Shown here one piece after another: positions 5,325-24,250 of a stretch of 64,000 nucleotides of DNA. The translations under genes were made by a program, and so were the position numbers. Each line of letters opens with the position of its first letter. Within the stretch, counting starts at the first letter, position 1. Where the stretch lies: positions 328,287-392,286 of the forward strand of contig JACKLW010000007.1 of assembly GCA_024235715.1 (NCBI GenBank), read 5' to 3'. The notes beneath the pieces are model-generated. The model had not been told where the DNA came from. It did no database searches and worked only from the letters and a program-made list of their open reading frames with translations. The DNA comes from Accumulibacter sp. GTDB lineage: Bacteria; Pseudomonadota; Gammaproteobacteria; Burkholderiales; Rhodocyclaceae.

Positions 5325-5335
5325 CGTGGGTCTCC

Positions 5336-6589: not shown

Positions 6590-7178
6590 GTGCGGCCTCC
6601 TGGTGACTTGCCCCGGCGATCTCGTCAGTGACGAACTGATAAGCCTCGGTGGCAGCAGCGATGTTGTTGCGGGCGATCTTCTCCGAGAACTTGGTATTGA
6701 TGGCCTTGATCACCGACTCCAGGCGGATGATTCCCGAGGCGGCGGCGAAGCCGGCCAGCAAGGGGACATTGGGCATCGGCCGGCCGACGTGCTTGCGGCT
6801 GAGGTCGGTGGCCGGGACCGTGAGAAGCCGCTCTTCCGGCCAGTCGCGGACGAAATCGGCTAGGCCCAGATCGGTAAAGCTGCGGCTGGTGTTGATCAGG
6901 ATGTAACCGCCCTTCTTCAGCCCGGAGAAGACGTCCACCTGGAAAAGCAGGGTCGGATCCTGAATGATCAGGGCATCGGGCTCCATGATTGGCTCGCGCA
7001 GCCGGATCTCCTGATCGGCGATGCGGCAGAAGGCGACGACGGGAGCGCCGGTGCGCTCCGATCCAAAACTTGGGAAGGCCTGCGCGTGGCGTCCCTCTTC
7101 AAATGCAGCGATCGATAACATTTCGGCAGCGGTAACCACGCCCTGGCCACCGCGACCATGTATTCGGACTTGGAACAT
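6582..7178 (-). CDS. 2-oxoacid:acceptor oxidoreductase, gamma subunit
   Basis: 198 residues, first gene of the four-gene operon. It starts MFQVRIHGRGGQGVVTAAE, the signature of the POR gamma (catalytic CoA-interacting) domain. The length matches stand-alone gamma subunits (about 180-200). Its ATG at 7178 follows a GGAGG-like sequence on the minus strand. The about 290 bases upstream, to the mch stop, must hold the operon promoter; no specific box could be assigned. No separate delta (ferredoxin) subunit is present, its role being taken by the C-terminal domain of the FAD subunit. Confidence 0.92.
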   Translation of the reverse strand: MFQVRIHGRGGQGVVTAAEMLSIAAFEEGRHAQAFPSFGSERTGAPVVAFCRIADQEIRLREPIMEPDALIIQDPTLLFQVDVFSGLKKGGYILINTSRSFTDLGLADFVRDWPEERLLTVPATDLSRKHVGRPMPNVPLLAGFAAASGIIRLESVIKAINTKFSEKIARNNIAAATEAYQFVTDEIAGASHQEAAHA

Positions 7179-7468: not shown

Positions 7469-8548
7469 TCATGCCGGCAATGGGCCACTGCCCGGTCTCT
7501 TCGGCATCAGGACCGTATAGTCGAAGTCGAGAAGCACGCTTGGGTCGTAGCTGCCGTCGGCTGCCTTGTACGGGAAGTCGGCACAGTTGCGGTCCTTGGT
7601 GGCCACGGTACGCAGGCGGAGCGCGCCAAGGTCATGGCGACCGGGAAGGGACATCTGTTCGATGACCTCCGACCAGGCGTACACCGTATCGCCGGCGAAT
7701 GCCGGCGATACATGCCTGCCTGCGTTGATCGCCGCGACGCTGAAGGCATTGGCCAGGCCGTTGAACGACAGCGAGCGCGCCAGGCCGATAATGTAGCCAC
7801 CGTAGACGATCCTGCGCCCGAAACGTCCCTCCTTTTCCGCGTGCTGGTTGAAGTGCACCCGCGCCGTGTTCTGGTAGAGGCGGGTGGCCATCATGTGCTC
7901 GCTTTCCTCGATGGTCATCCCGTCGACGTGGTCGATGCGTTCACCGACCCGGTAGTCGTCCCATAGATCCGTGCTGCCCGAAAGCGTGGTGTCGTAGTCT
8001 TCCAGCCTGATCCCGGCCGGAATGACCAGGTCGCTCGCCGCCACGGCATCGTGAAGTTCGGGAATCACGGTGTCTGGCGCCGGTGACGCCGGATCGCGCT
8101 TGCGAACCATTACCCAGCGGCAGTAGTCGAGCGCTATCTGCCCACGCTGATTGACGCCACAGGAGCGCACATAGACGATGCCGGTCTTGCCGTCGCGATT
8201 TTCCTTGAGTCCGATCACCGTCGAATCGGCGGTGAGCGTGTCTCCCGGATAGACACGGTGACCGAAGCGTCCGGTGGCGTAGCCGAGGTTGGCAATGGCA
8301 TTGAGCGAGATATCCGGCACCGTCTTGCCGAAGACCACGTTGAAAGCCAGCAAATTGTCCACCGGCGAACGCGGGAAGGACAGGCTGTGCGCGAAGGTGT
8401 CTGCCGAGGTCAGGGCAAAGCGCGAGCCGGTCAGTGCCGTGTACAGGGCGACATCGCCTTCGGTAATCGTCCGCGGCGTCGCATGGGCGATCGTCTGGCC
8501 GACGCGAAAATCCTCGAAGAAATTGCCCCGCCTGGTCTTCTCGCTCAT
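7469..8548 (-). CDS. mch: Mesaconyl-C1-CoA hydratase (beta-methylmalyl-CoA dehydratase)
   Basis: 359 residues, double-hotdog MaoC-like enzyme that interconverts mesaconyl-C1-CoA and (2R,3S)-beta-methylmalyl-CoA. The N-terminal half begins NFFEDFRVGQTIAHATPRTI and holds ITEGDVALYTALTGSRFAL and the motif VFGKTVPDISLNA. The C-terminal half holds IDHVDGMTIEESEHMMATR and YQNTARVHFNQHAEKEGRFG, the region matching the hydratase-2 active site in related enzymes. The match to Mch of Rhodobacter and Chloroflexus as I recall those sequences is extensive over the full length. It is the last gene of mct-mcl-mch, 33 bases downstream of mcl. The order mch-mcl-mct is the one known from Chloroflexus aurantiacus. 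Confidence 0.95.
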   Translation of the reverse strand: MSEKTRRGNFFEDFRVGQTIAHATPRTITEGDVALYTALTGSRFALTSADTFAHSLSFPRSPVDNLLAFNVVFGKTVPDISLNAIANLGYATGRFGHRVYPGDTLTADSTVIGLKENRDGKTGIVYVRSCGVNQRGQIALDYCRWVMVRKRDPASPAPDTVIPELHDAVAASDLVIPAGIRLEDYDTTLSGSTDLWDDYRVGERIDHVDGMTIEESEHMMATRLYQNTARVHFNQHAEKEGRFGRRIVYGGYIIGLARSLSFNGLANAFSVAAINAGRHVSPAFAGDTVYAWSEVIEQMSLPGRHDLGALRLRTVATKDRNCADFPYKAADGSYDPSVLLDFDYTVLMPKRPGSGPLPA

Positions 8549-8581
8549 CGTCTTCTCTCCCCCTCGTCCCGCATGGTCGCT

Positions 8582-9625
8582 TTACAGTCCATAGGCAGCC
8601 GCCAGGTCCGGATCGCGTCTGGCAACAAGGCTTGCCAGATCGACGATCACCCGCGCCTGTTTCCAGGTGGCGTCGTCCTGCATCTTGCCGTCGATCGTCG
8701 CCACGCCACTGCCGTCGGGCATGGCTTCCAGAATGCGCTTGGCGAACAGGACTTCCTTGACATCGGGACTGAAGACGCGTTTGGCTATGGCGATCTGGTT
8801 GGGCGCCAGCGACCAGGCGCCGGAGCAACCCATCAGGAAGGCATTGCGAAACTGCGCCTCGCAGGCCGCCTCGTCCTTGAGGTCACCGAACGGCCCGTAG
8901 AACGAGTGCAGACCGTGTGCCACGGCTGCATCGACCATGCGGGCGACGGTGTAGTGCCACAGATCCTGCTGAAAGAAGGCACGCTGGTCCTTGCCCACCT
9001 CGGGGTCTGCAAGAACGCCGTAGCCGGGGTGACCGCCTCCGACGCGAGTGGTCTTCATGCCGCGCGACGCCGCCAGGTCTGCAGGGCCGAGGCTCAGACC
9101 GTGCATCCGTGGACTGGCGCCGCAGATCGCCTCGACATTGGTCACCCCTTGCGCGGTTTCAAGCAGCGCGTGCAGCAGGATCGGCTTGCGGATTGCGTAT
9201 TTCGCTTCGAGCAGGGCGACGTACTGATCGACGAAGTGGATATCCCAGGGCCCCTCGACCTTGGGGATCATGATCACGTCGAGCTTGTTGCCGACATGCT
9301 TGATGATCTCGCTGAGGTCGTCGAGTACCCACGGGCTGTTCAGCGCATTGATGCGCACCCACATGCCGGTATCGGCGAAATCGTTGTTTGCCAGCACTTC
9401 GATGAAGCCGGCACGCGCCGCCTCCTTGGCGTCGATCGGAATGGCGTCCTCGAGGTTGCCGCACATTACATCGCACTTGCTGGCAGTCTCGGGCGCCTTG
9501 GCGCGGATCTTTTCGATGTGTGGCGGAAAGAAGTGGATCATGCGCTCCGGTCGCACGGGCAGTTCACGCAGGGGTTGTGGGGCACCAATGGCGAGCGGCT
9601 TGTAGAAATGGACTGGTAGCTTCAT
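8582..9625 (-). CDS. mcl: Malyl-CoA / beta-methylmalyl-CoA / citramalyl-CoA lyase
   Basis: 347 residues, HpcH/HpaI (CitE-like) TIM-barrel lyase. Metal ligands are predicted at Glu156 (LLETAQG) and Asp183 ([10 protein letters not shown]), the same 27-residue spacing as in characterised malyl-CoA lyases. The N-terminus [20 protein letters not shown] and C-terminus [10 protein letters not shown] match, as I recall it, the Chloroflexus trifunctional lyase, which also cleaves (S)-citramalyl-CoA to acetyl-CoA and pyruvate. Reactions: beta-methylmalyl-CoA to glyoxylate + propionyl-CoA, and possibly citramalyl-CoA cleavage. It lies between mct (80 bases) and mch (33 bases). Trifunctionality is inferred from similarity, not seen directly. 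Confidence 0.95.
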
Positions 9626-9705
9626 GGCATTCTTCCTGGGGAAAGAGACGGTCTGGCAGGCAAGGGCGGCGAAGGACTCATCGGTACGGTAATGCGGTCA
9701 TGCGG

Positions 9706-10926
9706 TCATCCTGGCCCGGCGACCACGCCGGCGTCGTGCAGCCGGCCGACTTCCGCTTCACTCATGCCGAGGACCTCGAGCAGTATCTGGTCGGTGTGTT
9801 GGCCAAGCAGCGGCGCCGGCATCGCCGGCAGGCGGGGCGACCCGGAAAAGTCGAGTGGCGTGGTGGGCATCAGGTAGGCTCCGACGCCGGCTTGCTCGGT
9901 CATGTGGAACAGGGGATTGTCGACCGAGCAATCGGGATCGTTGGCAATCGCCTCGCGAACGCTGCGATAGGGGCTCCAGCTGACGCGGTGCGCATCGAGG
10001 ACGGCTGCCGCCTCGGCCAGCGTGCGTGCCTGGCACCACGGTTCGATCAGCGCGGCGATCTGCTGGCGCGCACGGAAGCGATTGCCCTCGTCGTCCAGGT
10101 CGAGTCCGAGACGGACGCCCAGCGCCTCGATCGACTCTTTCAGTCCGGTCGCCTTGATCAGGTCGCGCCACTGCCTGCGGGTCAGTCCGACGATCATCAG
10201 CCGCTTGCCGTCGAGTGTTTCGAAGTCGCGGCCGAAAGCGCCGTACAGGTAGTTTCCCTGTCTGGGCCGGTCGGCATCGTTGACCATCACCTCGGCGATC
10301 ATTCCGACGTTGCCGATCATCGCCAGCGCCACGTCCTTGAGTGCCAGGCGTACCAACTGCCCTTCTCCGGTCAGGCGGCGGTGCCTTTCGGCGGCGAGCA
10401 TGCCGATGGCGATCATGTGGCCGCTGATGAAGTCCCACGCCGGAAAGACGTGGTTGACCACCTCGGGGGAAGCGTTCGGCCCGGTCATGAAGGGCAGGCC
10501 AACCTGCGGGTTTACGGTGTAATCGACGTCCGAGCTGCCGTCGCGGCGACCGGTGAGATTGACCATGATCAGGTCCTGCCGATTGGCTTGCAGTGCCTCG
10601 TAGCTCAGCCAGCCGGTGGCCGGGAAGTTGGTGCTGAAGAGACCGGCGTTCTCGCCCGGCGCACAGATCAGCTCGGTCAGCAACGCCTGTCCACGGGGAT
10701 TGCGCAGGTTGACTGCGATCGAACGCTTCCCCTTGTTCATGCCGGCCCAGAAAAGGCTGTGCTGGCCGCCGCGGGCCAATGGCCAGCGACCGTAGTCGAG
10801 GCCGCCGCCGATGGGGTCGAAACGGATGACGTCGGCGCCCAGTTGAGCGAGCGTCATGCCACCCAGTGGTGCGGCGACGAACGCCGAGCCTTCGACCACC
10901 CGCAGGCCCTTGAGGATACCGTCCAT
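9706..10926 (-). CDS. mct: Mesaconyl-CoA C1-C4 CoA transferase
   Basis: 406 residues, family III CoA transferase. It moves CoA within the same molecule, turning mesaconyl-C1-CoA into mesaconyl-C4-CoA. The predicted catalytic aspartate is Asp165 in PAWDFISGH, and the N-terminus MDGILKGLRVVEGSAFVAAP is typical of the Chloroflexus enzyme as I recall it. Mct is otherwise known mainly from the 3-hydroxypropionate bi-cycle and is not part of the classical ethylmalonyl-CoA pathway. First gene of the mct-mcl-mch operon; a 561-base gap separates it from divergent meh. Other family III transferases (formyl-CoA, succinyl-CoA) are less likely given the neighbours and the full-length match. Confidence 0.93.
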   Translation of the reverse strand: MDGILKGLRVVEGSAFVAAPLGGMTLAQLGADVIRFDPIGGGLDYGRWPLARGGQHSLFWAGMNKGKRSIAVNLRNPRGQALLTELICAPGENAGLFSTNFPATGWLSYEALQANRQDLIMVNLTGRRDGSSDVDYTVNPQVGLPFMTGPNASPEVVNHVFPAWDFISGHMIAIGMLAAERHRRLTGEGQLVRLALKDVALAMIGNVGMIAEVMVNDADRPRQGNYLYGAFGRDFETLDGKRLMIVGLTRRQWRDLIKATGLKESIEALGVRLGLDLDDEGNRFRARQQIAALIEPWCQARTLAEAAAVLDAHRVSWSPYRSVREAIANDPDCSVDNPLFHMTEQAGVGAYLMPTTPLDFSGSPRLPAMPAPLLGQHTDQILLEVLGMSEAEVGRLHDAGVVAGPG

Positions 10927-11487
10927 ATCGTCTTACCCGTCCTGCCGCCGCGTTCTGCGGCCGCAAATGGATTCGTCAGTCAAGCCAACCGCCTTCTTGC
11001 TCATTCGCCGGCGCCAGTAAGCAGCGATATCCCGCCGCACGCGCGCCTGGCAGGCCACTGCCATGCTCGCACCGCCATTCTGACGGCGCGCTTCTTGCCC
11101 AGTGCTGCAATCCCGACGGCGGCGATCGCGAGCAGATCGCTGACTTCGTGGCCAGCATGTTGCCCGAACTTCGCAGCCAGGCATCCGTGTCCCCAAGCGC
11201 GGTCGAGGGTGCGCCCTCGCCGATGCGACGCAACAGGTCTGGCTGCCATCGTCCCCCACGGCGGAGCTGTTGCCTCCACAGAGGTGCTGCCGCCCGTCGA
11301 ACACATCGGCGATGCCGTTCCGGGTGGCGGTGCAGTGCGCACAGTATATGGGAAAAGGGGGGCGCCGGCGCACGCTTGCGACGCGGGCAGCGACGGCGCG
11401 CAACGTATGTGCGCCGGCTTGAGTTTGCCCGCCTGCTGTGCTGTACTTGCCGAAGGCCTCCGGAACCCACGCAAAAGGATACGCTTG
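10927..11487. other. Divergent intergenic region mct / meh
   Basis: 561 bases between the start of mct (minus) and the start of meh (plus). A plus-strand open frame runs straight through it into meh, but it is the antisense shadow of mct and has no protein-like features. The region must carry both promoters. I recognised no operator, riboswitch or small gene. Confidence 0.6.
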
Positions 11488-12345
11488 ATGACAGACGTGA
11501 CAGCAGACTATGGCGCCTGGATTGGCCGCCGCGAAGTCACCGACGACGAACTGGCCCTGGCTCCGGCACTGGCGGCGGCCGCGACCCTGGACGACACGGC
11601 GACGCACTTCGAACGAGGCAGCGCACTTCCGCCGCTGTGGCACTGGTTCTACTTCCTGCCGAGGGCGGCGCAGGCGCAGCTCGACGTCGACGGGCACCCG
11701 CGCCGGGGTGGTTTCATGCCACCGGTTCCCTATCCCAGACGGATGTTTGCCGGTGGCCGAACGCGCTACCACCGGCCGCTACTGATCGGTCAGCCGGCGC
11801 GGCGCGAAGCGCTGATCCGGGATGTTCGGGAGAAATCGGGTCGCTCTGGCTCGCTGGCCTTTGTTTCCGTGAGCTACAACTTCTATCAGGATGGCGAGCT
11901 CTGTATCGAGGAGGAGCAGGACATTGTCTATCGTGAGCCAGGGCCGGCGGTTGCTCGTCCGCAAGTGATCGCCTGGACGCCCCTCGGGGAAGGCACCTGG
12001 TCACGTATCGTGACGCCGGACCCGAAACTGCTCTTCCGCTTCTCGGCGCTTACCTTCAACGCCCATCGCATTCATTACGACCGGCCCTACGCCACCGAGG
12101 AGGAGGGCTATCCCGGGCTGGTCGTGCATGGCCCCTTGACCGCAGTCCTGCTGATGGAACTGCTGCGCACGCATGCGGGCCGGCCGGTCAGGAGCTTCAG
12201 CTTCCGCGGCTTGGCTCCACTGTTCGATCTCGCGCCGTTTCGCGTGCTTTGCACCGGCGGCAAAGACGGCCAGATGTCGCTCGTCGCGCAGGCACCCGAC
12301 GGAGTCGCCGCGATGAGCGCCAGCGCCGAGTTGGTGCCGGCCTAG
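11488..12345 (+). CDS. meh: Mesaconyl-C4-CoA hydratase
   Basis: 285 residues from the ATG at 11488, which follows an AAAAGGA site; the upstream open frame is antisense to mct. It is a FAS1-type hotdog hydratase with a C-terminal MaoC-like half: FSALTFNAHRIHYDRPYA carries the N-x-H-x2-H signature, followed by YPGLVVHGPLTAVLLMELL. Meh hydrates mesaconyl-C4-CoA to (S)-citramalyl-CoA, the step after Mct in the 3-hydroxypropionate bi-cycle. The neighbouring mct-mcl-mch genes support that assignment over the generic family description. It is transcribed toward the ethylmalonyl-CoA operon and separated from it by 670 bases. Confidence 0.9.
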   Translation: MTDVTADYGAWIGRREVTDDELALAPALAAAATLDDTATHFERGSALPPLWHWFYFLPRAAQAQLDVDGHPRRGGFMPPVPYPRRMFAGGRTRYHRPLLIGQPARREALIRDVREKSGRSGSLAFVSVSYNFYQDGELCIEEEQDIVYREPGPAVARPQVIAWTPLGEGTWSRIVTPDPKLLFRFSALTFNAHRIHYDRPYATEEEGYPGLVVHGPLTAVLLMELLRTHAGRPVRSFSFRGLAPLFDLAPFRVLCTGGKDGQMSLVAQAPDGVAAMSASAELVPA

Positions 12346-13015
12346 TCGCCTTGCCCGGAACGGCGCTCATGGCGCCGGCAAGGCAATCCTGAAGGACAGA
12401 GACGGTGGAGCGGCCAAAGGCCTCCGCTTCACCGGCGTCGAACCGTTGGCAGCTGTCAATGGGCGCGCTGCTTGTGGCAACTCCCGTGCAACGGCAGCGC
12501 CGCCAGCAGTTCTGTGTCCGTCCGGGGTCTTCCATGGCTGAGCAGGTCCGAGCCCTTGCCAAATTCCCGTTTTCCTGTGCATGCCCGAAGGGCGCCTCGC
12601 CTTCGCACTCCCATGGGCGCTTGGCTCAGGCGCCCACAGTCGAGGCTGGCGGGCGTATTGGCGACGGCTTTTCCCTGTCTCGATCGCACTTGCCCGTTCT
12701 CCGCCATCGAGAAACGGCGTGCCCTGGCGTTCTCGGTACGGCCAGGAAGGGTATCGGGCACGGCTAACCCTGGTGGCGCGCCCACGAACGAAGGCGGCCG
12801 TACGCGATAGCGAACGATCGGGGTCGGCGAAACCGTCTTCCACGTTTTACTCTTATCTCTTATATAAGATCGAAGAGATCTCTTCCTGTGGCCGTAATCG
12901 TATTGCCTTGTGCCACGATCGCCGATAGAATCCTCATTAACTGCGAGGAATAGTACGGTAAGACAAATGCATGATATTTATGGATTTGCAGTGTGCTCAA
13001 TTTTGGAGGGACGAA
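12346..13015. other. Intergenic region upstream of the ethylmalonyl-CoA operon
   Basis: 670 bases. The first about 480 are GC-rich with only low-quality open frames on both strands. From about 12835 the composition turns AT-rich and contains two adjacent palindromes (separate entry), then TTGCC and GATAGAAT-like stretches, and finally the ribosome binding site GGAGGG at 13005-13010. The promoter of the operon is therefore most likely between 12840 and 13000. I looked for a cobalamin-riboswitch B12 box, because Ecm needs B12, and found none. Confidence 0.6.
12858..12885. promoter_or_regulatory. Tandem palindromes, candidate operator of the ethylmalonyl-CoA operon
   Basis: Two perfect palindromes lie 2 bases apart in the AT-rich region: TCTTATATAAGA at 12858-12869 and GAAGAGATCTCTTC at 12872-12885. 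They are about 130 bases before the first gene. Symmetric sites of this size usually bind dimeric regulators. No regulator gene lies adjacent, so the binder is unknown. Confidence 0.4.
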
Positions 13016-14455
13016 ATGAAACTTACGCTCAGCCATGATGAAATAGGTGCCTATTCTGGCGAGTTGCACGCTTGCAACGAGGCTTTCAAATCGCACTACC
13101 CGGCGGATTCCTTCGACCGGCAGCCGGTGCATACGGTCTACGGGGGCGCCAATCTGTTCAAGGCCGGCTTTGCCGGCAAGTTGGGTGAGGTTGCGCTCAA
13201 GACCCTCGATACCTATGCCCCCAGTTACAGCGTCTTCGCCCGCGCACTTGGCTTGCCGCGCGCCGACACCTTGCCGACGAATCCGATGGAGCTGGCCAGC
13301 CTCACCCGTGCGCTGGAAACGAATCCCGACCTCGTCCGAGAGACCAAGCAGGCCGCCTGGCTGGCTTATACGGTCTACAACCGGGTCGTGAAGAAGTTGC
13401 AGAGCGAGCCGATTGAAGACAACCGCATCGACTTCGAAGATGGCTACGGCAATCGCCCGGACGATGAAGAAGATGGTCATGCCGTCTCGGCTGCCGACGA
13501 AGTCGCCAAAGGGATGGGCGATGGCGTGCTCTCGCCGTTTATCGGCATCCGGGTGAAGACCTTCTCGGAAGAGTGCAAGCTGCGCTCGATTCGCACCCTG
13601 GACATCTTCCTGACGCGGCTGGCCGAGAAGACCGGCGGCAAACTGCCGCAGAACTTCATCGTCACGCTTCCGAAGGTCACTACGCCGGGTCAGGTGTCGA
13701 CCTTCGTAAAGATTCTCGAGAATCTCGAGTCTCGACTTGGTTTTCCCAAGGACTCGCTGAGAATGGAGATCATGATCGAAACGACGCAGTCGATCATCAA
13801 TCACAAGGGGGAAAACACGGTTCCGCTGCTCGTCGCTGCCGCCGGTGGCCGCTGCCGCTCGGCGATCTTCGGGACCTACGACTACACGGCCTCGTGCAAC
13901 ATTACTGCCGCACACCAGACGCACACCCATCCGGCCTGCGATTTCGCGCGCCACGTGATGCAGGTCAGTCTGGCCGGAACCGGAATAACGATCAGCGACG
14001 GTGCGACCACCAGCATGCCGATCGGGCCGCACAAGGCGGCCAGGGACGCTGTTCTGTCGGCGCAGCAGATGGACGAGAATCGCGCCGTCGTGCACGGTGC
14101 CTGGAAGCTGCACTACGACAATATCATGCACTCCCTGCGGCACGGCTACTATCAGGGCTGGGATTTGAATCCGGGCCAGTTGCCGGTGCGCTATGCGGCG
14201 ATGGACACCTTCTTCCTCAGCAGTCTGCAGGATGCCTCGGCGCGGCTGAACGCTTTTCTCAACAAGGCCGCTCAGGCGACGCTGGTCGGCAATACCTTCG
14301 ACGACGCAGCGACAGGTCAGGGCTTGCTGAACTTCTTCTTGCGGGGAATGGCGTGCGGCGCGATCACCGAGCAGGAAGTTCTCGCGACGGGAATCACTCT
14401 GGACGAGTTGCGCTCGCGTTCGTTTGTCCAGATTGTCAGCAATCGGACCAGCTAG
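13016..14455 (+). CDS. HpcH/HpaI-type aldolase/lyase, DUF6986-like, in the ethylmalonyl-CoA operon
   Basis: 479 residues from the ATG at 13016, five bases after GGAGGG; an upstream in-frame ATG at 12971 lacks such a site. The fold signals are those of the CitE/malyl-CoA lyase superfamily: RIDFEDGYG (acidic ligand loop), VTLPKVTTPG, EIMIETTQS, IFGTYDYTASCNI, GTGITISDGATT and GYYQGWDLNPGQLPVRYA. This set matches the uncharacterised DUF6986 family as I remember it. Being first in an operon with Mcd, an Mch-like hydratase, Ecm and Ccr, it is a good candidate for the C4/C5 acyl-CoA lyase or thioesterase step of the pathway (beta-methylmalyl-CoA cleavage or malyl-CoA formation/hydrolysis). That role is inference. 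Confidence 0.8.
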   Translation: MKLTLSHDEIGAYSGELHACNEAFKSHYPADSFDRQPVHTVYGGANLFKAGFAGKLGEVALKTLDTYAPSYSVFARALGLPRADTLPTNPMELASLTRALETNPDLVRETKQAAWLAYTVYNRVVKKLQSEPIEDNRIDFEDGYGNRPDDEEDGHAVSAADEVAKGMGDGVLSPFIGIRVKTFSEECKLRSIRTLDIFLTRLAEKTGGKLPQNFIVTLPKVTTPGQVSTFVKILENLESRLGFPKDSLRMEIMIETTQSIINHKGENTVPLLVAAAGGRCRSAIFGTYDYTASCNITAAHQTHTHPACDFARHVMQVSLAGTGITISDGATTSMPIGPHKAARDAVLSAQQMDENRAVVHGAWKLHYDNIMHSLRHGYYQGWDLNPGQLPVRYAAMDTFFLSSLQDASARLNAFLNKAAQATLVGNTFDDAATGQGLLNFFLRGMACGAITEQEVLATGITLDELRSRSFVQIVSNRTS

Positions 14456-14499
14456 CAAGCGACGCAACAGCCGATCAGCTATCAAGAAAGGGATGAGCC

Positions 14500-16176
14500 A
14501 TGACAGAGGTCAACAGCGGAATGCAGGTGGCGGTACGGTATCTCCAATCAGCCGATGCACTGATCGGGAAGTCGCTGGGCTGGATGAAGCAGCAGTGTGC
14601 CGGCGACAAGGGAGTCTCCAGCGAGAAGCTCGACGCCCATCAGATGGCCAGTTTCGATCTGGCATGGTGTGCCGCTGAAGCGACCGCTGCACGTTTTGCG
14701 GCTGACTATGCCGGCAAGGTTGCCGCGGCCGGTGCGACAGGCGATGGCCCATGTCTGGAAGAGCGGATGGCGCTGGTGTTTTGCGCCGAGGCCTTGCAGA
14801 ACATTCACAACCGTTTCTGGGCGCGCCCGCAGTGTTTCGGCGTGAATGCCGGCGAACTGGCCGCCTTCGCCTCTTCCGAAATGGCTGTTTTCTGCCAGAC
14901 GCAACTCGATGCGCGCAATCTGGAAGCGCTTGGCAGGCAGGTGGCGGCACTGGAGGGCGACAGCGGTGCCTACATGCTCGGCGATGACGCGATGATGATG
15001 CAGGACGCGTTCCGCAAGCTGGCGACCAACGTGGTGATGCCTCTGGCCGAGGAGATTCATCGCGAGGACCGGATCATTCCGCAGGAAATCCTCGAGCCGC
15101 TGACGGAAATGGGCTGCTTCGGCCTGTCGATTCCGGAACGTTTCGGCGGTATCCAGAGCGACGATCATGAAGACAACATGGGGATGATCGTGGTCACCGA
15201 GGAACTGTCGCGCGGCTCCCTCGGTGCGGCAGGCAGCCTGATCACCCGTCCTGAAATCCTCAGCCGCGCCCTGCTCAAGGGCGGAACGGAAGCGCAGAGA
15301 CAGAAGTGGTTGCCGCAGGTGGCGATGGGCGATCCATTGTGCGCCATCGCGGTCACCGAACCGGATACCGGCTCGGACGTCGCGGCCATGCGCCTCAAGG
15401 CGACCAGGTGCGATGGCGGCTGGATTCTGGACGGCGTCAAGACCTGGTGCACCATGGCCGGCAAGGCTGGCGTGCTGCTGGTCCTGGCCCGATCCAACCC
15501 GGACCGCTCGCTCGGTCACAAGGGCTTGAGCATGTTCCTGGTGGAAAAGGACTCGTATGACGGGCACGATTTCGAGTATCGTCAGGCGCAGGGTGGCGTG
15601 CTGACCGGCCGGGCGATTTCGACCATTGGTTACCGCGGGATGCATTCCTATGAACTGTTCTTCGACAACATCTTTGTCCCTGACGAGAATCTGGTCGGCG
15701 GTCCGGAAGGCGAAGGGAAGGGCTTCTACTTCACCATGGCCGGCTTTGCGGGCGGACGAATTCAAACTGCCGCACGTGCCATCGGCGTCATGCAGGCGGC
15801 TTTCGAACGTGCCGTTTCCTATGCCGGCGAGCGCAAGGCATTCGGCAAACCGATTGGCGACTATCAACTGACGCTGGTCAAGTTGGCGCGCATGGCAACT
15901 CTGCTGACCGTCTCCCGGCAATTCACCTACGCCGTCGGGCGTCTCATGGACCAGGGTTCAGGGCAGATGGAAGCGAGCATGGTGAAGCTCTTCACCTGTC
16001 GGACCGCCGAGTGGCTGACCCGCGAAGCGCTGCAGATCCATGGGGGTATGGGCTATGCCGAGGAGTCGCCCGTCAGCCGCTATTTCCTGGATGCCCGTGT
16101 GCTGTCGATTTTCGAAGGGGCCGAAGAAACGCTGGCCCTGAAGGTGATCGCGCGCGCGCTCATCGACGCGGCGTAG
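14500..16176 (+). CDS. mcd: (2S)-Methylsuccinyl-CoA dehydrogenase
   Basis: 558 residues, acyl-CoA dehydrogenase with the extra N-terminal helical domain (about 150 residues) that marks Mcd. It oxidises methylsuccinyl-CoA to mesaconyl-C1-CoA, passing electrons to ETF. ACAD motifs are AITEPDTGSD-like AVTEPDTGSDVAAM, GGWILDGVKTWCTMAG, YAGERKAFGKPIGDYQ and HGGMGYAEE. The expected catalytic base is Glu539 in SIFEGAEET. The length is close to the Rhodobacter enzyme (about 550) and well above ordinary ACADs (about 380). It starts 44 bases after the aldolase-like gene with a good AAAGGGATGAGCC leader. A 242-base gap to the next gene could hold a secondary promoter. Confidence 0.94.
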   Translation: MTEVNSGMQVAVRYLQSADALIGKSLGWMKQQCAGDKGVSSEKLDAHQMASFDLAWCAAEATAARFAADYAGKVAAAGATGDGPCLEERMALVFCAEALQNIHNRFWARPQCFGVNAGELAAFASSEMAVFCQTQLDARNLEALGRQVAALEGDSGAYMLGDDAMMMQDAFRKLATNVVMPLAEEIHREDRIIPQEILEPLTEMGCFGLSIPERFGGIQSDDHEDNMGMIVVTEELSRGSLGAAGSLITRPEILSRALLKGGTEAQRQKWLPQVAMGDPLCAIAVTEPDTGSDVAAMRLKATRCDGGWILDGVKTWCTMAGKAGVLLVLARSNPDRSLGHKGLSMFLVEKDSYDGHDFEYRQAQGGVLTGRAISTIGYRGMHSYELFFDNIFVPDENLVGGPEGEGKGFYFTMAGFAGGRIQTAARAIGVMQAAFERAVSYAGERKAFGKPIGDYQLTLVKLARMATLLTVSRQFTYAVGRLMDQGSGQMEASMVKLFTCRTAEWLTREALQIHGGMGYAEESPVSRYFLDARVLSIFEGAEETLALKVIARALIDAA

Positions 16177-16418
16177 TTCCGGCTCCAGCCTGCAGGTCGT
16201 CGCGCCGATGGTCATGGCAGCGCAGCCGGTGACGGTCATGACCGCTTCCTTCACTTGCGGTGCGCATTCCGGCATGCGCGCCGCTGTTGTTTGAGTGGCG
16301 GTGAGCAGGCCTCCTGGAGTCCTCGCCTCATTCCCCGATCCTTGTCTCCCGCTCGGGGTGAAACAGAAGGGAGATTCGTGAGTCGCGAATGCGACTTGCA
16401 CGGCAAAAGGAAGATTCC

Positions 16419-17600
16419 ATGTCGCAAGCGATTCGTTTCCGACCGCAGGTCGAGCTGGCTGAAACAGTGAAGGTGGACCTGCAGAAGGTCCGCTACCCTC
16501 ACTATGGACGCTATCTGGAGGAGTTCGTGCCGGGGCAGGTGTTTGTGCACCCGCGTGGCTTCACCTTCTTCCCCGCCCAGATGGAGGCCTTTGCCCGCAC
16601 CTACATGCAGTGCAATCCGCTGTACATCAATCAGGAGTACGCGCGGGCCAGCGGTTTTGCCGGCCTGCTGGCTTCGCCGCAGATGGTCTTCAACGTCGTT
16701 CTCTCGCTCGGCGTGCAGAACGACTCGGAAAAGGCAATGGCGAACCTCGGCTATTACGATGCGCAGTACTTGCGGCCGGTTTATCAGCTGGACACGATTC
16801 GCGCCCTGACCAGGGTCATGGACCGCAAGGAGCGTGGCGCCGGCAAGCCCGGTATCGTGACCATCCGGACATTGGGCATCAACCAGAATGACGAGGTGGT
16901 TCTGCAGTACCAGCGCAAGATCATGGTCGCCGGGCAGGGTGACCGTCCGCCAACCACGCCCCTGCCGCCCTCCGCGGCGATGCCGGCCTTCCCCTGGGTC
17001 GAGGATGCCGCGGTCTCCCTGCCCGAGTTTCCGGCTGCGCTTCCTTCCGGCCTGACCGGGCCAACTTCCTACTTCGAGGATTTTTCCGTCGGCGAGATCA
17101 TCGTTCACGCCAATGGCAGAACGATCACCGATGAACATCAGCCGCTGACCTACGCGGTGGGAAATACGCATCCGCTGCACTTCGATCGCGTCTTCAGTTC
17201 CGGCCTGTCGGGCAAGATGAGCGGAGATCCCATTGTTTATGGGGGGCTGGTTTTCGCCTGGCTGGAAGGCCTGGCCAGTCGCGACGTCAGCGAGAACAGC
17301 GTATGGGAGCTCGGTTTCACGGAGGGCTATCATACTCAGCCCTCGGTCGGCGGCGACACCGTTGCCGCCCTGTCGCGCGTCCTGGCCGCCGAAGATGCCC
17401 CCGGCGAGTTGGGCGCCAGCTTCGGCATCGTGACTTTTCAGCTGGTCGGCGTCAAGAACGTCAGTGCCGCCACCGCTTTTGCCGAATACGGCGAGGATTT
17501 GTTCATCAAGGAAAACGACAAGAAGGCGATGAACAAGGAAAAGATCGAGGCGAAGATTTTTGAGATCGAGAGACGTCTCTTGATCAGGAAGAGGAGCTAG
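16419..17600 (+). CDS. Mch-like double-hotdog MaoC hydratase (second mesaconyl-CoA hydratase candidate)
   Basis: 393 residues from the ATG at 16419, preceded by AAAAGGA. Two MaoC-like hotdog halves are visible. The first has FTFFPAQMEAFARTYMQCNP. The second opens SYFEDFSVGEIIVHANGRTI and carries VGNTHPLHFDRVFSSG. The N-T-x2-[VL]-H-F core of the second half matches NTARVHF in the Mch encoded at 7469-8548, so a mesaconyl-CoA / beta-methylmalyl-CoA hydratase role is plausible. It is longer by 34 residues and clearly diverged, ending in a Lys/Glu-rich helix (KENDKKAMNKEKIEAKI). It ends two bases before ecm. Substrate is inferred; another branched C5 acyl-CoA is possible. Confidence 0.8.
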   Translation: MSQAIRFRPQVELAETVKVDLQKVRYPHYGRYLEEFVPGQVFVHPRGFTFFPAQMEAFARTYMQCNPLYINQEYARASGFAGLLASPQMVFNVVLSLGVQNDSEKAMANLGYYDAQYLRPVYQLDTIRALTRVMDRKERGAGKPGIVTIRTLGINQNDEVVLQYQRKIMVAGQGDRPPTTPLPPSAAMPAFPWVEDAAVSLPEFPAALPSGLTGPTSYFEDFSVGEIIVHANGRTITDEHQPLTYAVGNTHPLHFDRVFSSGLSGKMSGDPIVYGGLVFAWLEGLASRDVSENSVWELGFTEGYHTQPSVGGDTVAALSRVLAAEDAPGELGASFGIVTFQLVGVKNVSAATAFAEYGEDLFIKENDKKAMNKEKIEAKIFEIERRLLIRKRS

Positions 17601-17602
17601 TC

Positions 17603-19621
17603 ATGGATTCCGTGCAAACGAAACGGGACCGTCCCTGGTTGATGCGGACCTACAGTGGTCACAGCTCGGCCCGGGCGTCCAACGCGCTCTATCGAACCAA
17701 TCTTGCCAAAGGCCAGACCGGGTTGTCGGTGGCCTTCGATCTGCCGACGCAGACCGGCTACGATGCAGACAGCCCCCTGGCCAGGGGCGAGGTCGGCAAG
17801 GTTGGCGTGCCGATATCGCATATCGAGGACATGGATCAGTTGTTTGACCAGATACCCCTCGACCAGATGAACACGGCGATGACCATCAACGCCACGGCGC
17901 CATGGCTGCTGTCCCTGTATATCGGCCTGGCACAGCGCAGAGGCATCGACCCGAAGAAGCTGAGCGGCACGACCCAGAACGACATCATCAAGGAATACCT
18001 GTCGCGGGGTACCTACATCTATCCGCCGGGTCCGTCGATGCGCCTGATCGCGGACACCATCAACTACACCGTCAAGCACGTGCCGAAGTGGAATCCGACC
18101 AACATCTGCAGTTACCACTTGCAGGAGGCAGGGGCTACGCCGGTCCAGGAACTGGCCTATGCCCTGTGCACCGCGACGGCCGTTCTGGACCGCGTCCAGG
18201 CGTCTGGCGAGATCAGGCCGGAAGAGTTTTCACAGGTCGTCGAGCGCATCTCCTTCTTTGTCAACGCGGGCATCCGTTTCGTCGAGGAGTGTTGCAAGCT
18301 GCGGGCATTCGGCGAGATGTGGGACGAGCTGACGCTGACCCGCTACAAGGTGGCCGATCCGAAGCTGCGCCGTTTTCGCTATGGCGTGCAGGTGAACTCG
18401 CTGGGGCTCACCGAACCGCAGCCGGAAAACAATGTGCAGAGAATCGTCCTGGAAATGCTGGCGGTGGCGCTGTCCAAGGGCGCTAGGGCGCGTGCCATCC
18501 AGCTTCCCGCGTGGAACGAGGCAATGGGTTTGCCGCGGCCCTGGGACCAGCAATGGGCGTTGCGCATGCAGCAGGTCTTGGCCTTCGAGACCGATCTGCT
18601 GGAGTACGAAGACATTCTCGACGGCTCGCCGGTGATTGCGGCGAAGGTCAGGCAGCTCGTCGAGGGTGCCAGAAGAGAGATCGAGAACGTCGAAGCGCAG
18701 GGCGGGATCATTGCCGCGATCGAATCCGGTTACGTCAAGCGCGAGCTGGTGGCCAGCCACATGCAGCGCTTGCGCGCGATCGAGTCGGGCGAACTGAAGA
18801 TCATCGGGGTCAACTGCTTCCAGGAAACCGCGGAGTCCCCGCTGACCCTGGGTAGCGATGGCGGTATCATGAAGACCGATCCGGCCGCCGAACGTGAGCA
18901 GATCGAAAGGCTGCAGGCGCATCGAAAGAAGCGCAGCGAGGCCGACGTTCAGGCCGCCCTGCAGGGGCTGAGCGATGCCGCCAGAAGCGGCGACAACATC
19001 ATGCCAAGTTCGATTCGCTGCGCCCTGGCCGGCGTCAGCACCGGCGAGTGGGGTGATTCGCTGCGCGCTGTGTTTGGTGAGTTCCGCCCGCCGACGGGGA
19101 TCGATATCGCCATCGACAGCCGCGCCGTACTTGGCAAGAAGGATCAGGTCACCGATCTCAGGGCGAGAGTCGCCAGCACCGGTGCGGCACTGGGCCGTCC
19201 CCTCAAGCTGCTGGTCGGCAAACCCGGGCTGGACGGACATTCCAACGGCGCGGAGCAGATTGCCGTCAAGGCGCGTGACGTCGGCTTCGAGGTGGTCTAC
19301 GACGGGATCCGCCTGACGCCGCAACAGATTGCCCAGGCTGCCGAAGAGGAAGGCGTGCATATGGTCGGCCTGTCGATACTTTCGGGAAGCCACATGGAGC
19401 TGGTGGAATCGGTGCTGCAGGAGCTGCGTTCGCGCGATCTGGCGAGCGTGCCGGTGATCGCCGGCGGGATTATCCCGCAAGAGGACGCAACGAAGCTGGC
19501 CGCGCTCGGCGTCAGCGCAGTCTACACGCCCAAGGATTTCAATCTCAATACGATCATGGCCGACATGGTGGACGTGATCCGCCACGCCAACGGGCTCGAA
19601 CGGCTTGGTCAGCTGCCCTGA
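17603..19621 (+). CDS. ecm: Ethylmalonyl-CoA mutase (B12-dependent)
   Basis: 672 residues. It rearranges (2R)-ethylmalonyl-CoA to (2S)-methylsuccinyl-CoA. The N-terminal TIM barrel has VAFDLPTQTGYDADSP and LSGTTQNDIIKEYLSRG, and the C-terminal cobalamin domain has the base-off motif Asp544-Gly-His546-Ser-Asn-Gly549 in GKPGLDGHSNG. The mutase family splits into methylmalonyl-, isobutyryl- and ethylmalonyl-CoA forms; a single-chain protein of about 670 residues next to ccr and mcd points to Ecm. It is followed after six bases by its GTPase chaperone. B12 supply would be needed, but no cobalamin gene lies in the window. Confidence 0.95.
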   Translation: MDSVQTKRDRPWLMRTYSGHSSARASNALYRTNLAKGQTGLSVAFDLPTQTGYDADSPLARGEVGKVGVPISHIEDMDQLFDQIPLDQMNTAMTINATAPWLLSLYIGLAQRRGIDPKKLSGTTQNDIIKEYLSRGTYIYPPGPSMRLIADTINYTVKHVPKWNPTNICSYHLQEAGATPVQELAYALCTATAVLDRVQASGEIRPEEFSQVVERISFFVNAGIRFVEECCKLRAFGEMWDELTLTRYKVADPKLRRFRYGVQVNSLGLTEPQPENNVQRIVLEMLAVALSKGARARAIQLPAWNEAMGLPRPWDQQWALRMQQVLAFETDLLEYEDILDGSPVIAAKVRQLVEGARREIENVEAQGGIIAAIESGYVKRELVASHMQRLRAIESGELKIIGVNCFQETAESPLTLGSDGGIMKTDPAAEREQIERLQAHRKKRSEADVQAALQGLSDAARSGDNIMPSSIRCALAGVSTGEWGDSLRAVFGEFRPPTGIDIAIDSRAVLGKKDQVTDLRARVASTGAALGRPLKLLVGKPGLDGHSNGAEQIAVKARDVGFEVVYDGIRLTPQQIAQAAEEEGVHMVGLSILSGSHMELVESVLQELRSRDLASVPVIAGGIIPQEDATKLAALGVSAVYTPKDFNLNTIMADMVDVIRHANGLERLGQLP

Positions 19622-19627
19622 CGAAAC

Positions 19628-20656
19628 ATGGCCCAGGCAAACCTTCCCGAACCCGAGCAGCTGGCCTTGCGGATACTGCGCGGGGAGCGCGCGGCGGTTG
19701 CCGGTGGTCTGAATCTCCTGGACAACAAGCTTCCGGAAGCGCGCAACCGCTCGGCGCGTCTGCTGGCCGCGCTCTCCGGCGAGCGTGCGCTGAATGACGG
19801 CCACCTCGTCGGGGTGACGGGTCCCCCCGGCGCCGGGAAGTCGTCTCTCGTTTCGGCGATGATACGCGAGTGGCGGCTCGCGGGCAGGACCGTCGGAGTG
19901 CTGGCGGTGGATCCGTCCAGCCGGCCGGAATTGGGCGGAGGCGCCTTGCTGGGCGATCGCATTCGCATCAAGAATTCCTCTCACGACGACGGTTTGTTCA
20001 TTCGCTCGCTGGCCAATCGCAACCAGTTGGGGGGCGTCGCGACCGAGGTCTGGCCAATGAGCTGGCTGATGCTGGCCTGCTTCGACATCGTGGTCATCGA
20101 GACCGTCGGCGTCGGGCAGACCGAAATCGATATCGCGGAGATCGGTGATACCGTCTGTTATGTGGCGCAGCCGGCGTCGGGCGACACGATCCAGTATCTC
20201 AAGTCGGGAATCATCGAAATACCGGATATCTTCGTGGTCAACAAGTCGGATATTGGCGCTGCGGCGCGCAAAACGGCCAGTGAACTTGGCCGCAGCGCGC
20301 CCCGGCCCGACCGCCGGGACGACTGGGATTATCCCGTGTGTCTGGTGAGCGCGACGATGAATACGGGGATCAGGCAGCTTAACGAGCATTTCGACAGGCA
20401 CCGCAAATATCTTGTCGGCGCCGACTTGCTGGGCACGCTGCGTGCTCGCCATCAAAGCGGCTGGGTAGTACGCCTGTTGAAAGAGGAGTTCGGAACGTTC
20501 GGCCTGGAACTGATCGGCGGCTGCGCGGCTGTCGGCGAAAGGCTTGGGGAAAACCAGCACCGTCAGTTTGAAGAATACGAGCGTATGCGCAAGCATATTC
20601 TTTCCAGATTCATGTCGGCAAGCCAGCCGAGTAGTCTAACCAAAGGAGCATCCTGA
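19628..20656 (+). CDS. meaB: MeaB/ArgK-family GTPase, mutase chaperone
   Basis: 342 residues, G3E-type P-loop GTPase that protects and reloads B12-dependent acyl-CoA mutases. The Walker A motif GPPGAGKS is at residues 65-72; a Mg-binding ETVGVGQTE and the base-specificity motif NKSD follow. It starts six bases after ecm and its stop overlaps the ccr start (TGATG), so ecm-meaB-ccr are coupled. The pairing supports Ecm being an active cobalamin enzyme. Confidence 0.94.
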
Positions 20657-22410
20657 TGAGCAAACAACTGTATGAACTAGGCGATAGGCCCCCCCTGGGC
20701 GAAGTTCCGGAACAGATGCATGCCTGGCTGATCCGCCAGGACCGTTTTGGCAAGCCCACCGAGGCGTTTCAGAAGGAAGTGGTGAATACCCCGGCGATCG
20801 CCGACGATGAGGTCCTGGTACTCGTGATGGCGGCGGGGATCAACTACAACAACGTGTGGGCGGCACTCGGCTTCCCGGTCAACGTCATCGGCGCCCGCAA
20901 CAAGGCCGGCGAGCCCGAAGACTTCCATATCGGCGGCAGCGACGCCTCCGGCATCGTCTACGCGGTCGGCAAGGACGTGACCAACGTCAAGGTCGGGGAC
21001 GAAGTGGTGATGCATTGCGGCCAATGGGATCGCAACTGCAGCTGGGTCAAGAAGGGTGGCGACCCGATGTACTCGCCCTCGTTCAAGATCTGGGGATACG
21101 AAACCAATTACGGCAGTTTTGCCCAATTCACCAAGGTGCAGGGTCACCAGTGCATGCCCAAGCCCAGGCACATGACCTGGGAAGAGTCGGCGGCGTATAC
21201 GCTGGTCGCCGCGACGGCCTGGCGGATGCTGCACGGCTGGGAAAGCAGTTCGATCAAGAAGGGCGATGTGGCCCTGATCTGGGGTGGCGCAGGCGGCCTG
21301 GGTTCGATGGCCATCCAGATCGCCAAGGCGGTCGGCGCGACATCGGTGGCCATCGTGTCGGGCGAGGACAAGTTCGACTACTGCATGAAGCTGGGTGCGA
21401 AAGGCTGCATCAACCGTAACGACTTCGATCACTGGGGCATGTTGCCGCACTGGAAGGACAACGCCGGCTACGCCAAGTGGCTGAAAGGCGTGCGCTCCTT
21501 TGGCGCGAAGATCTGGGAAGTGCTGGGCGAGAAGCGCGCGCCGAACATCGTCTTCGAGCATCCTGGCGAAACGACCATCCCGACTTCGATTTTCGTGTGT
21601 GAAACCGGTGGCATGGTCGTCGTCTGCGCCGGCACCTCGGGCTACAATGCGACCGTCGACCTGCGCTACCTGTGGATGCGGCAGAAGCGCCTGCAAGGCT
21701 CGCATTTTGCCAATGCCGTGCAGTGCAACCAGATGAACGAGCTGGCGCTTGCTGGCCTGATCGATCCCTGCATGTCGCGAGCGTTTACCTATGACGATCT
21801 GCCCCTGGCACATCAGTTGATGCACGACAACAAACACCCGCACGGCAACATGTCGGCGCTGATTGGCGCTACCGAATTCGGCCTGGGTGCCAGTGGCAAG
21901 CCGGCCGTGGCGATTGTGCATCCGACGCTGCCCAAGGACGATGTTCACACGACGCCGGCACCCTATCCGATGTCCACGCCGCTGCCGGGCATTGCCGAGG
22001 GCGAACCCGTTACCATTGCCGACGATGGCAGCAAGGTTCGCGATCTGATGCATCGTGGCATCATTTCCTGTGCGCCGGGCGATTCCGTCGGTGCTGTCGC
22101 CAAGATCATGGTCGACAACGAGATTCATGCCGTGGTCGTCATGGATGCGCAGGGCGGAGCCGTTGGCGTCGTGTCGCAGACCGACATGGTTCTGGCGCGG
22201 CAGGGCCGGACGCCGGATCAGGCGCGCGCGATGCAGGCCGGGGAGATCATGACCCCGGGTTGCGCGACCTGCGATGCGGAGATGCTGTTGAGCGACGCGG
22301 TCAGCCTGATGACGGGGCGTCGTATGCACCGTCTGGTGGTGACCGAGCAGGGTCAGCCGGTGGGCGTCATTTCCATGACCGACGTGGTCCGCAAGATCAT
22401 CGGCGAGTGA
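20656..22410 (+). CDS. ccr: Crotonyl-CoA carboxylase/reductase with C-terminal tandem CBS domains
   Basis: 584 residues, against about 430-450 for known Ccr. Residues 1-412 are a full MDR-family Ccr that reductively carboxylates crotonyl-CoA to ethylmalonyl-CoA with NADPH and CO2. Visible are [12 protein letters not shown], the nucleotide loop [11 protein letters not shown] (209-219), NYGSFAQF, and QGSHFAN, whose His350 aligns with the CO2-binding His of characterised enzymes as I recall it. A Pro-rich linker (about 413-455) leads to two CBS motifs: [16 protein letters not shown] to [10 protein letters not shown] (461-512) and [16 protein letters not shown] to [10 protein letters not shown] (528-578). 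CBS pairs bind adenine nucleotides or SAM in other enzymes. The frame is continuous, so the fusion is not a stop read-through in this sequence. Last gene of the operon. Confidence 0.95.
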
Positions 22411-22486: not shown

Positions 22487-22516
22487 CCCTTCCCCGTCCT
22501 TGCGGACGGGGAAGGG
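22487..22516 (+). terminator. Rho-independent terminator after ccr
   Basis: Perfect 13-base stem, CCCTTCCCCGTCC at 22487-22499 and GGACGGGGAAGGG at 22504-22516, with a four-base loop TTGC, followed by ATTTTC. It lies about 75 bases after the ccr stop and would end the ethylmalonyl-CoA transcript. The stem is nearly symmetric, so it may also be an abundant dispersed hairpin. Confidence 0.75.
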
Positions 22517-23800: not shown

Positions 23801-24250
23801 ATGAATCCCCAGAACGGTTACGATATTGAAGACTTGTCAGTCGGCATGAGCGCAGAAATTGCCAAGACGATTACCGATGCGGACCTCGTCATGTTTGCCG
23901 GCGTGTCCACGGACGTCAATGCGGTTCATATGGACGAGGATTTTGCAAAGACGACGATGTTTGGCGGCCGCATCGCGCACGGCATGTTGTCGGCCAGCCT
24001 GATCTCGGCGGTGCTCGGCAACCGTTTGCCCGGGCCGGGCTGCATTTACATGAGCCAGGCCTTGCGTTTTCGTGCGCCGGTGCGTCCCGGCGACACGGTC
24101 CATGCCAGGGTTACCGTCAAGGAAGTTTTCGCCGACAAGGGGCGGGTAGCGCTCGATACCGTATGCACGGTGGGAGACAAGGTGGTCATTGACGGAGAAG
24201 CGATGCTGATGCCAACCTCGCGCAGCAAGCGCGAAGCGGCCGGCAAGTAG
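23801..24250 (+). CDS. phaJ: (R)-specific enoyl-CoA hydratase, MaoC/PhaJ type
   Basis: 149 residues, single hotdog. The active-site pair Asp38-x4-His43 lies in STDVNAVHMDEDFA, followed by GGRIAHGMLSASLIS, the full hydratase-2 signature. The reaction is (R)-3-hydroxyacyl-CoA to trans-2-enoyl-CoA. In this context it can convert PHB-derived (R)-3-hydroxybutyryl-CoA into crotonyl-CoA, the Ccr substrate, or run the other way for PHB synthesis. Monocistronic, with 274 bases upstream in which I see no clear operator. Confidence 0.9.
   Translation: MNPQNGYDIEDLSVGMSAEIAKTITDADLVMFAGVSTDVNAVHMDEDFAKTTMFGGRIAHGMLSASLISAVLGNRLPGPGCIYMSQALRFRAPVRPGDTVHARVTVKEVFADKGRVALDTVCTVGDKVVIDGEAMLMPTSRSKREAAGK

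Follow-up and report, generated by a model that had tools for sequence, protein, structure and literature searches.

A crotonyl-CoA carboxylase/reductase with a C-terminal CBS pair in Accumulibacter: a conserved fusion and a candidate allosteric sensor

We analysed a 64,000-nucleotide stretch of DNA from Accumulibacter sp. (contig JACKLW010000007.1 of assembly GCA_024235715.1, positions 328,287 to 392,286; hereafter the window), in which the gene ccr-CBS encodes the CO2-fixing enzyme crotonyl-coenzyme A (CoA) carboxylase/reductase (Ccr), continued into a pair of CBS motifs, a module that in other proteins serves to sense adenine nucleotides. The fusion gives a known enzyme a new domain architecture, which is conserved, laterally spread and very probably regulatory. 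Together the results make it probable that Ccr-CBS is a true Ccr of the ethylmalonyl-CoA pathway whose C-terminal CBS pair acts as an on-board allosteric sensor. No description of a Ccr-CBS fusion was found in the open-licence literature of PubMed Central (PMC), and we know of no CBS-regulated medium-chain reductase/carboxylase, the search having been made for Ccr only.

Results

The frame at 20656-22410 on the plus strand runs through 584 codons with no interruption, and its matches to TIGR01751 and Pfam bear out the original prediction of a full Ccr followed by two CBS motifs. TIGR01751 covers residues 17-412 with 556.7 bits (E 2e-167, cut-off 378.55; model positions 4-396 of 398), which by score and by full model coverage makes the Ccr part a member of this equivalog family. 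The genes ecm, mcd and mch, for ethylmalonyl-CoA mutase, methylsuccinyl-CoA dehydrogenase and mesaconyl-CoA hydratase, are encoded together with the fused ccr at 14500-22410, the company expected of an ethylmalonyl-CoA-pathway enzyme. A structure search found 52-56% identity between the catalytic part and 4gi2, AntE (4y0k) and ECR (9kva), and the 50 structures listed for the whole model were Ccr and related dehydrogenases/reductases. Residues N65, Y148, E149 and H350 align, via 6na3, with N81, F170 (F/Y), E171 and H365, which we take to be the CO2 site of Kitasatospora ECR, assuming that chain and paper numbering differ by two. These four positions are conserved in 67-68 of the 68 rows of an alignment of fused proteins, in which row L001 repeats the window's own gene. 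Likeness to the known enzymes (4gi2, 4y0k, 9kva and 6na3) covers the whole catalytic part, the catalytic positions and the ethylmalonyl-CoA clusters; in contrast, the known chains are 410-445 residues long and lack a CBS part. Unfused relatives likewise stop 1-15 residues past the Ccr part, apart from L169 (21) and L173 (74).

An assembly or frame error that merged two genes, the artefact that would have undone the prediction, can be dismissed for practical purposes, because the same architecture recurs across the genus, in family f94 (that of genome G128, which holds Competibacter and Contendobacter) and in Defluviicoccus. Another 22 genomes of the genus, including the single-contig G010 and G016, give full-length matches at 85-92%, and the fused Ccr is also encoded on the complete Defluviicoccus chromosome CP058705 (L074).

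The C-terminal part matches Pfam CBS in two stretches with 86.3 bits in all (E 2e-24, cut-off 24; best stretch 528-582), so that the domain search proposed with the prediction comes out as anticipated. Both motifs score above the gathering threshold and the part has the CBS fold; modelled separately, the pair reached a mean predicted local distance difference test score (pLDDT) of 90.6. In the full-length model the mean pLDDT was 79.6 with a predicted template modelling score of 0.66, and values fell below 50 in linker residues 416-437 and 442-454 and in residues 327-340 of the catalytic part. Both motifs carry the ribose-binding Asp and the preceding Ser/Thr of the adenine-nucleotide CBS motif: D510 and T509 are present in all 68 fused rows, D576 in 67 and T575 in 64. 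In both motifs the ligand-contact residues are near-invariant and rank with the most conserved positions of the CBS part, and the CBS domain evolves under purifying selection; a working sensor is therefore likely. Cysteines were also seen in most rows, at C472 (22069-22071; 63 of 68) and in a C536-x-x-C539 motif (22261-22272).

By fold, binders of AMP/ADP, of S-adenosylmethionine (SAM) or methylthioadenosine (MTA) and of cyclic di-AMP (c-di-AMP) match the CBS pair about equally well. The closest, tied with all rows within 1 Z unit, is AcuB (Z 18.2), which has been solved with AMP, ADP and ATP but differs in its 17% identity, its chain of about 200 residues and the lack of a fused enzyme. IMP dehydrogenase and AMPK gamma, which are regulated through CBS pairs (Bateman modules), share the fold and motif of Ccr-CBS, whereas in Ccr-CBS a medium-chain reductase/carboxylase carries the pair at its C-terminus.

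The search for further fusions suggested by the original prediction was productive, with examples in Accumulibacter, f94, Defluviicoccus, SAR324 and other alphaproteobacteria. The full-length fusion is present in 23 of 28 Accumulibacter genomes and an unfused Ccr in none of the 28; nine genomes from other genera of the same family have no Ccr. Family f94 carries the fusion in 18 of 31 genomes, full-length in 17 and in pieces in G811. Among 64 named loci, collected by exact matching of short peptides from the window protein and hence biased to near relatives, 55 have all or part of the CBS pair and nine do not; the organisms include Accumulibacter, Competibacter, Contendobacter, Defluviicoccus, SAR324, a Rhizobiales and a Deltaproteobacteria metagenome-assembled genome. 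Samples drawn evenly gave Ccr in 61 of 398 genomes of the phylum (limit 1e-60; two fused, G000 and G698), in 4 of 369 genomes of the class (three fused) and, at the strict limit of 1e-160, in 11 of the 385 sampled from the class of G698 (three fused), a class that we read as Alphaproteobacteria because of gene order and likeness to named loci. Around G698, 29 of 61 genomes match, seven of them with the fusion, and G840 and G858 hold fused and unfused Ccr in the same genome. The fusion is thus a minority form of Ccr, rare beyond a few lineages. Plasmids yielded no fused form: 43 records match at 1e-80 and none covers 80% of the query.

Some genomes hold more than one copy. Two fused copies occur in G812, G818, G820 and G824 of f94, and a second fused ccr lies on the same contig in L049 (6815-8752 and 12944-14746) and L190 (6864-8705 and 8665-10656). 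Within 7 kb of the second fused copies L063, L065 and L067, nothing related to the window's ethylmalonyl-CoA genes was found; a second copy is possibly a separate isoform with another role. Two genomes of 1.3-1.4 Mb and 97% completeness, G838 (L147, L188) and G856 (L148), encode, besides the fused Ccr, another Ccr homologue at 38-39%, and their small size would fit a symbiont. The fused Ccr of L075, on a contig labelled as a Synechococcaceae cyanobacterium, branches among the Competibacteraceae in the tree, probably through a binning error.

We collected 135 distinct Ccr sequences, 67 of them fused, and built a tree of the Ccr part alone from 80 of these and the window, with Accumulibacter and unfused alphaproteobacterial rows thinned to about one in four. 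The 50 fused rows lie on one side of a single branch (support 98/81; 98% of 200 bootstrap trees), a side that is a clade if the root falls among the unfused rows; L080 and L083 form long branches. Distances in the Ccr and CBS parts run in parallel across the 68 rows (r 0.924; best of 999 permutations 0.369). Because the fused rows share one branch side and the two parts diverge together, a single fusion event, followed by common descent and lateral transfer, appears the simplest account, and repeated independent fusions are not supported. In the loci collected, BLAST found no separate CBS gene beside an unfused Ccr that might be a forerunner, a weak negative given that many flanks were about 1.5 kb.

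In Defluviicoccus (L070, L073, L074) and G877 (L149) the fused ccr stands between ecm and mcd, an arrangement that carries an unfused ccr in alphaproteobacterial loci. We compared the three Defluviicoccus loci with the alphaproteobacterial L089 (Pseudorhodoplanes), L091 (Enterovirga), L153, L158 and L168, and with Accumulibacter/Competibacteraceae (the window, L031, L054, L060, L064, L066 and L069). Defluviicoccus Ecm is 66-82% identical to the alphaproteobacterial proteins and 62-66% to those of the other group, and Mcd 61-68% compared with 39-47%. For Ccr the order is reversed, at 51-57% and 67-75%, respectively. Of the three genes, only ccr was exchanged for the foreign fused type, between neighbours that look native. 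This exchange points to selection for the fused form of the enzyme; that selection acted on the CBS pair specifically we infer.

Isocitrate lyase, the marker of the glyoxylate shunt, was sought with TIGR01346 in 49 genomes with fused Ccr and 87 with unfused Ccr only (G765 and G793 left out). At a strict limit of 1e-50 it was found in 42 of the 49 (all 23 genomes of the genus, 16 of the 17 from f94, where G826 has a partial match below the cut-off, and 3 of 9 in alphaproteobacteria) and, in the unfused set, in 0 of 30 and 1 of 57. This limit is too strict for one long isocitrate lyase type, and a second search at 1e-5 covered 80 genomes (73 unfused and the seven fused without a strict match). 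It gave no match above the curated cut-off. Four unfused genomes (G839, G844, G558 and G098; L194-L197) showed multi-block matches in frames of 556-619 codons with a KQCGH motif, presumably isocitrate lyases of the Pseudomonas type; none of the seven fused genomes had this long, divergent type. Most other weak matches, in frames of about 300-500 codons at model positions of about 150-260, we take as methylisocitrate-lyase-like relatives. The unfused count is thus at least 5 of 87, a lower bound since 13 unfused genomes lay outside the second search, and the contrast with 42 of 49 is still large. A Fisher test of these counts was set aside on account of the relatedness of the genomes. Glycogen synthase, present in 23 of 26 genomes with the fused Ccr and in 17 of 30 with the unfused one, was rejected as a trait marker, since all 11 unfused genomes of family f263 have it.

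The remaining features of the window are collected in Table 1. The meaB stop codon and the ccr start codon share one base (TGATG). Downstream of ccr-CBS follow a gene resembling NAD(P)H:quinone oxidoreductases and one for a MaoC hydratase. A scan for terminator-like hairpins gave 12 sites compared with a mean of 9.6 in shuffled sequence; the one just behind ccr-CBS has the most pairs and is a possible end of the operon. Elsewhere, too, the fused ccr has relatives of ecm, mcd and mch as neighbours: in the majority of Accumulibacter loci, in several from Competibacteraceae and in L078 of SAR324.

Table 1. Coordinates of ccr-CBS, its parts and neighbouring features in the window
Feature	Position	Strand	Basis or remark
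Mct, 2-methylfumaryl-CoA (mesaconyl-CoA) isomerase	9706..10926	-	TIGR04253, 801 bits, cut-off 725
DUF6986 protein	12971..14455	+	opens probable operon; lyase role suggested by context
Acyl-CoA dehydrogenase, probably methylsuccinyl-CoA dehydrogenase (mcd)	14500..16176	+	role from context
Mesaconyl-CoA hydratase (mch)	16389..17600	+	MC_hydratase
Putative ethylmalonyl-CoA mutase (ecm)	17603..19621	+	MM_CoA_mutase and B12-binding domain; substrate from context
MeaB-type GTPase	19628..20656	+	
ccr-CBS, Ccr with C-terminal CBS pair, 584 aa	20656..22410	+	open frame and profile matches
Ccr catalytic part, residues 1-412	20656..21891	+	TIGR01751 profile, structure alignment
Pro-rich linker, residues 413-459	21892..22032	+	mostly low pLDDT, variable sequence
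CBS motif 1, residues 460-512	22033..22191	+	H491; G504-V-V-S507-Q-T509-D510
CBS motif 2, residues 527-582	22234..22401	+	H558-R559; G570-V-I-S573-M-T575-D576
Terminator-like hairpin, 13 pairs (10 G-C)	22487..22516	+	just 3' of ccr-CBS; consensus match only
MaoC-type (R)-enoyl-CoA hydratase, candidate PhaJ	23801..24250	+	would link 3-hydroxybutyryl-CoA and crotonyl-CoA

On the minus strand, 7469-10926 encodes Mct, a lyase of the CitE/malyl-CoA-lyase type and another mesaconyl-CoA hydratase. A FAS1_DH-like protein starting at about 11488 is a possible mesaconyl-C4-CoA hydratase. These genes (7469-12345) adjoin the ethylmalonyl-CoA genes at 12971-22410; together, the neighbours could convert acetyl-CoA and CO2 to pyruvate via mesaconyl-CoA and citramalyl-CoA. 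In L068 and L080, too, the fused ccr has Mct-like genes nearby. At 2689-7178 on the minus strand is a cluster for a 2-oxoacid (pyruvate-type) ferredoxin oxidoreductase; the two of its proteins that were searched are PorA-like and NAD(P)-binding/PorD-like.

Discussion

Adenylate control of Ccr-CBS is, on the sequence evidence, the leading reading of the fusion. The CBS pair would bind an adenosine-type ligand, most likely AMP, ADP and ATP in competition. Acting through the flexible linker, binding would alter how the CBS pairs are arranged in the Ccr oligomer, and this rearrangement would raise or lower Ccr turnover. With Ccr on, crotonyl-CoA would be carboxylated and flow towards ethylmalonyl-CoA, mesaconyl-CoA, and propionyl-CoA or pyruvate; otherwise it would stay in the 3-hydroxybutyryl-CoA/polyhydroxybutyrate pool and acetyl-CoA would take the glyoxylate shunt. 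We thus read the gated enzyme as dividing acetyl-CoA and 3-hydroxybutyryl-CoA between storage, the glyoxylate shunt and the ethylmalonyl-CoA route. As to the sign of control, activation by AMP is a weakly held guess, made because AMP-forming acetate activation should raise AMP anaerobically, when carboxylation would be wanted as a sink for reducing power.

The original prediction was of a Ccr gated by its CBS domains, and its regulatory pair is supported by the conservation of the fusion, the near-invariant ligand contacts and purifying selection; an adenylate as the ligand, and its effect on Ccr activity, stay predictions. A less likely but serious alternative is that the pair senses SAM/MTA, c-di-AMP or NAD(P)H, such that redox state or a second messenger rather than energy charge gates Ccr. 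Two features speak for adenylates, though both are compatible with other adenosine ligands too: each CBS motif retains the Ser/Thr and Asp of the adenine-nucleotide signature, and there is a His-Arg pair, which we read as that of AMPK gamma. Ligand control would be absent altogether if the pair were only an assembly or docking module, for oligomer stability or for binding to granules or partners. CBS pairs dimerise in many proteins, and the long linker of mostly low model confidence would suit such a role, but the ligand contacts, which in both motifs belong to the most strongly conserved CBS positions, make this unlikely. Still less likely is a disulfide switch in which C472 and C536-x-x-C539 answer the anaerobic/aerobic cycle: the three cysteines are kept in 63, 60 and 60 of 68 rows, but Defluviicoccus and related rows have Ile or Val in place of C539, and C536 and C539 are each missing in 8 of 68 rows, whereas the nucleotide motif persists.

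Several points weigh against a CBS sensor that switches Ccr relative to the glyoxylate shunt. CBS pairs can serve solely for subunit assembly, and the CBS model is as close to SAM/MTA and c-di-AMP binders as to adenine-nucleotide ones. The full-length model is of only moderate confidence, and as a single chain it shows no path from the CBS pair to the active site. The link with isocitrate lyase rests on few independent host lineages of related genomes, six of the nine fused alphaproteobacterial genomes have no isocitrate lyase, and the four divergent enzymes missed at the strict limit are all in unfused genomes. Defluviicoccus is reported without a glyoxylate cycle, and a table of the same paper, whose column heads are not visible, has the cycle absent in 8 of 9 columns (PMC9041414). 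The recount of isocitrate lyase leaves our estimate of the sensor reading unchanged.

A broader proposal, which we hold only tentatively, is that Ccr-CBS is a laterally traded, energy-sensing carboxylase that replaces the native Ccr in storage cyclers. One cell could then run both the glyoxylate shunt and the route through ethylmalonyl-CoA, with adenylate charge switching between them; in Accumulibacter the product may also exit via mesaconyl-CoA isomerase and citramalyl-CoA to pyruvate. The tie to a polyphosphate-accumulating lifestyle in the original prediction proved not to be specific, as the fusion also occurs in glycogen accumulators, SAR324 and other alphaproteobacteria; Competibacteraceae and Defluviicoccus are discussed as glycogen accumulators in the literature.

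For Paracoccus, which has both acetyl-CoA routes in one cell, one study leaves their coordination open and names allosteric control among the possibilities (PMC6747724). A Ccr with a built-in sensor makes the coordination of the two routes directly testable. The ethylmalonyl-CoA pathway has been discussed as an anaerobic redox sink or a source of propionyl-CoA in Accumulibacter, Contendobacter and Defluviicoccus (PMC12604563, PMC8956781, PMC9041414). All three carry the fused form, which gives the finding a bearing on phosphate removal. If the sensor reading is true, the energy state of the cell may switch a step of acetate use at Ccr, and a ligand-controlled carboxylase would be useful for synthetic CO2 fixation.
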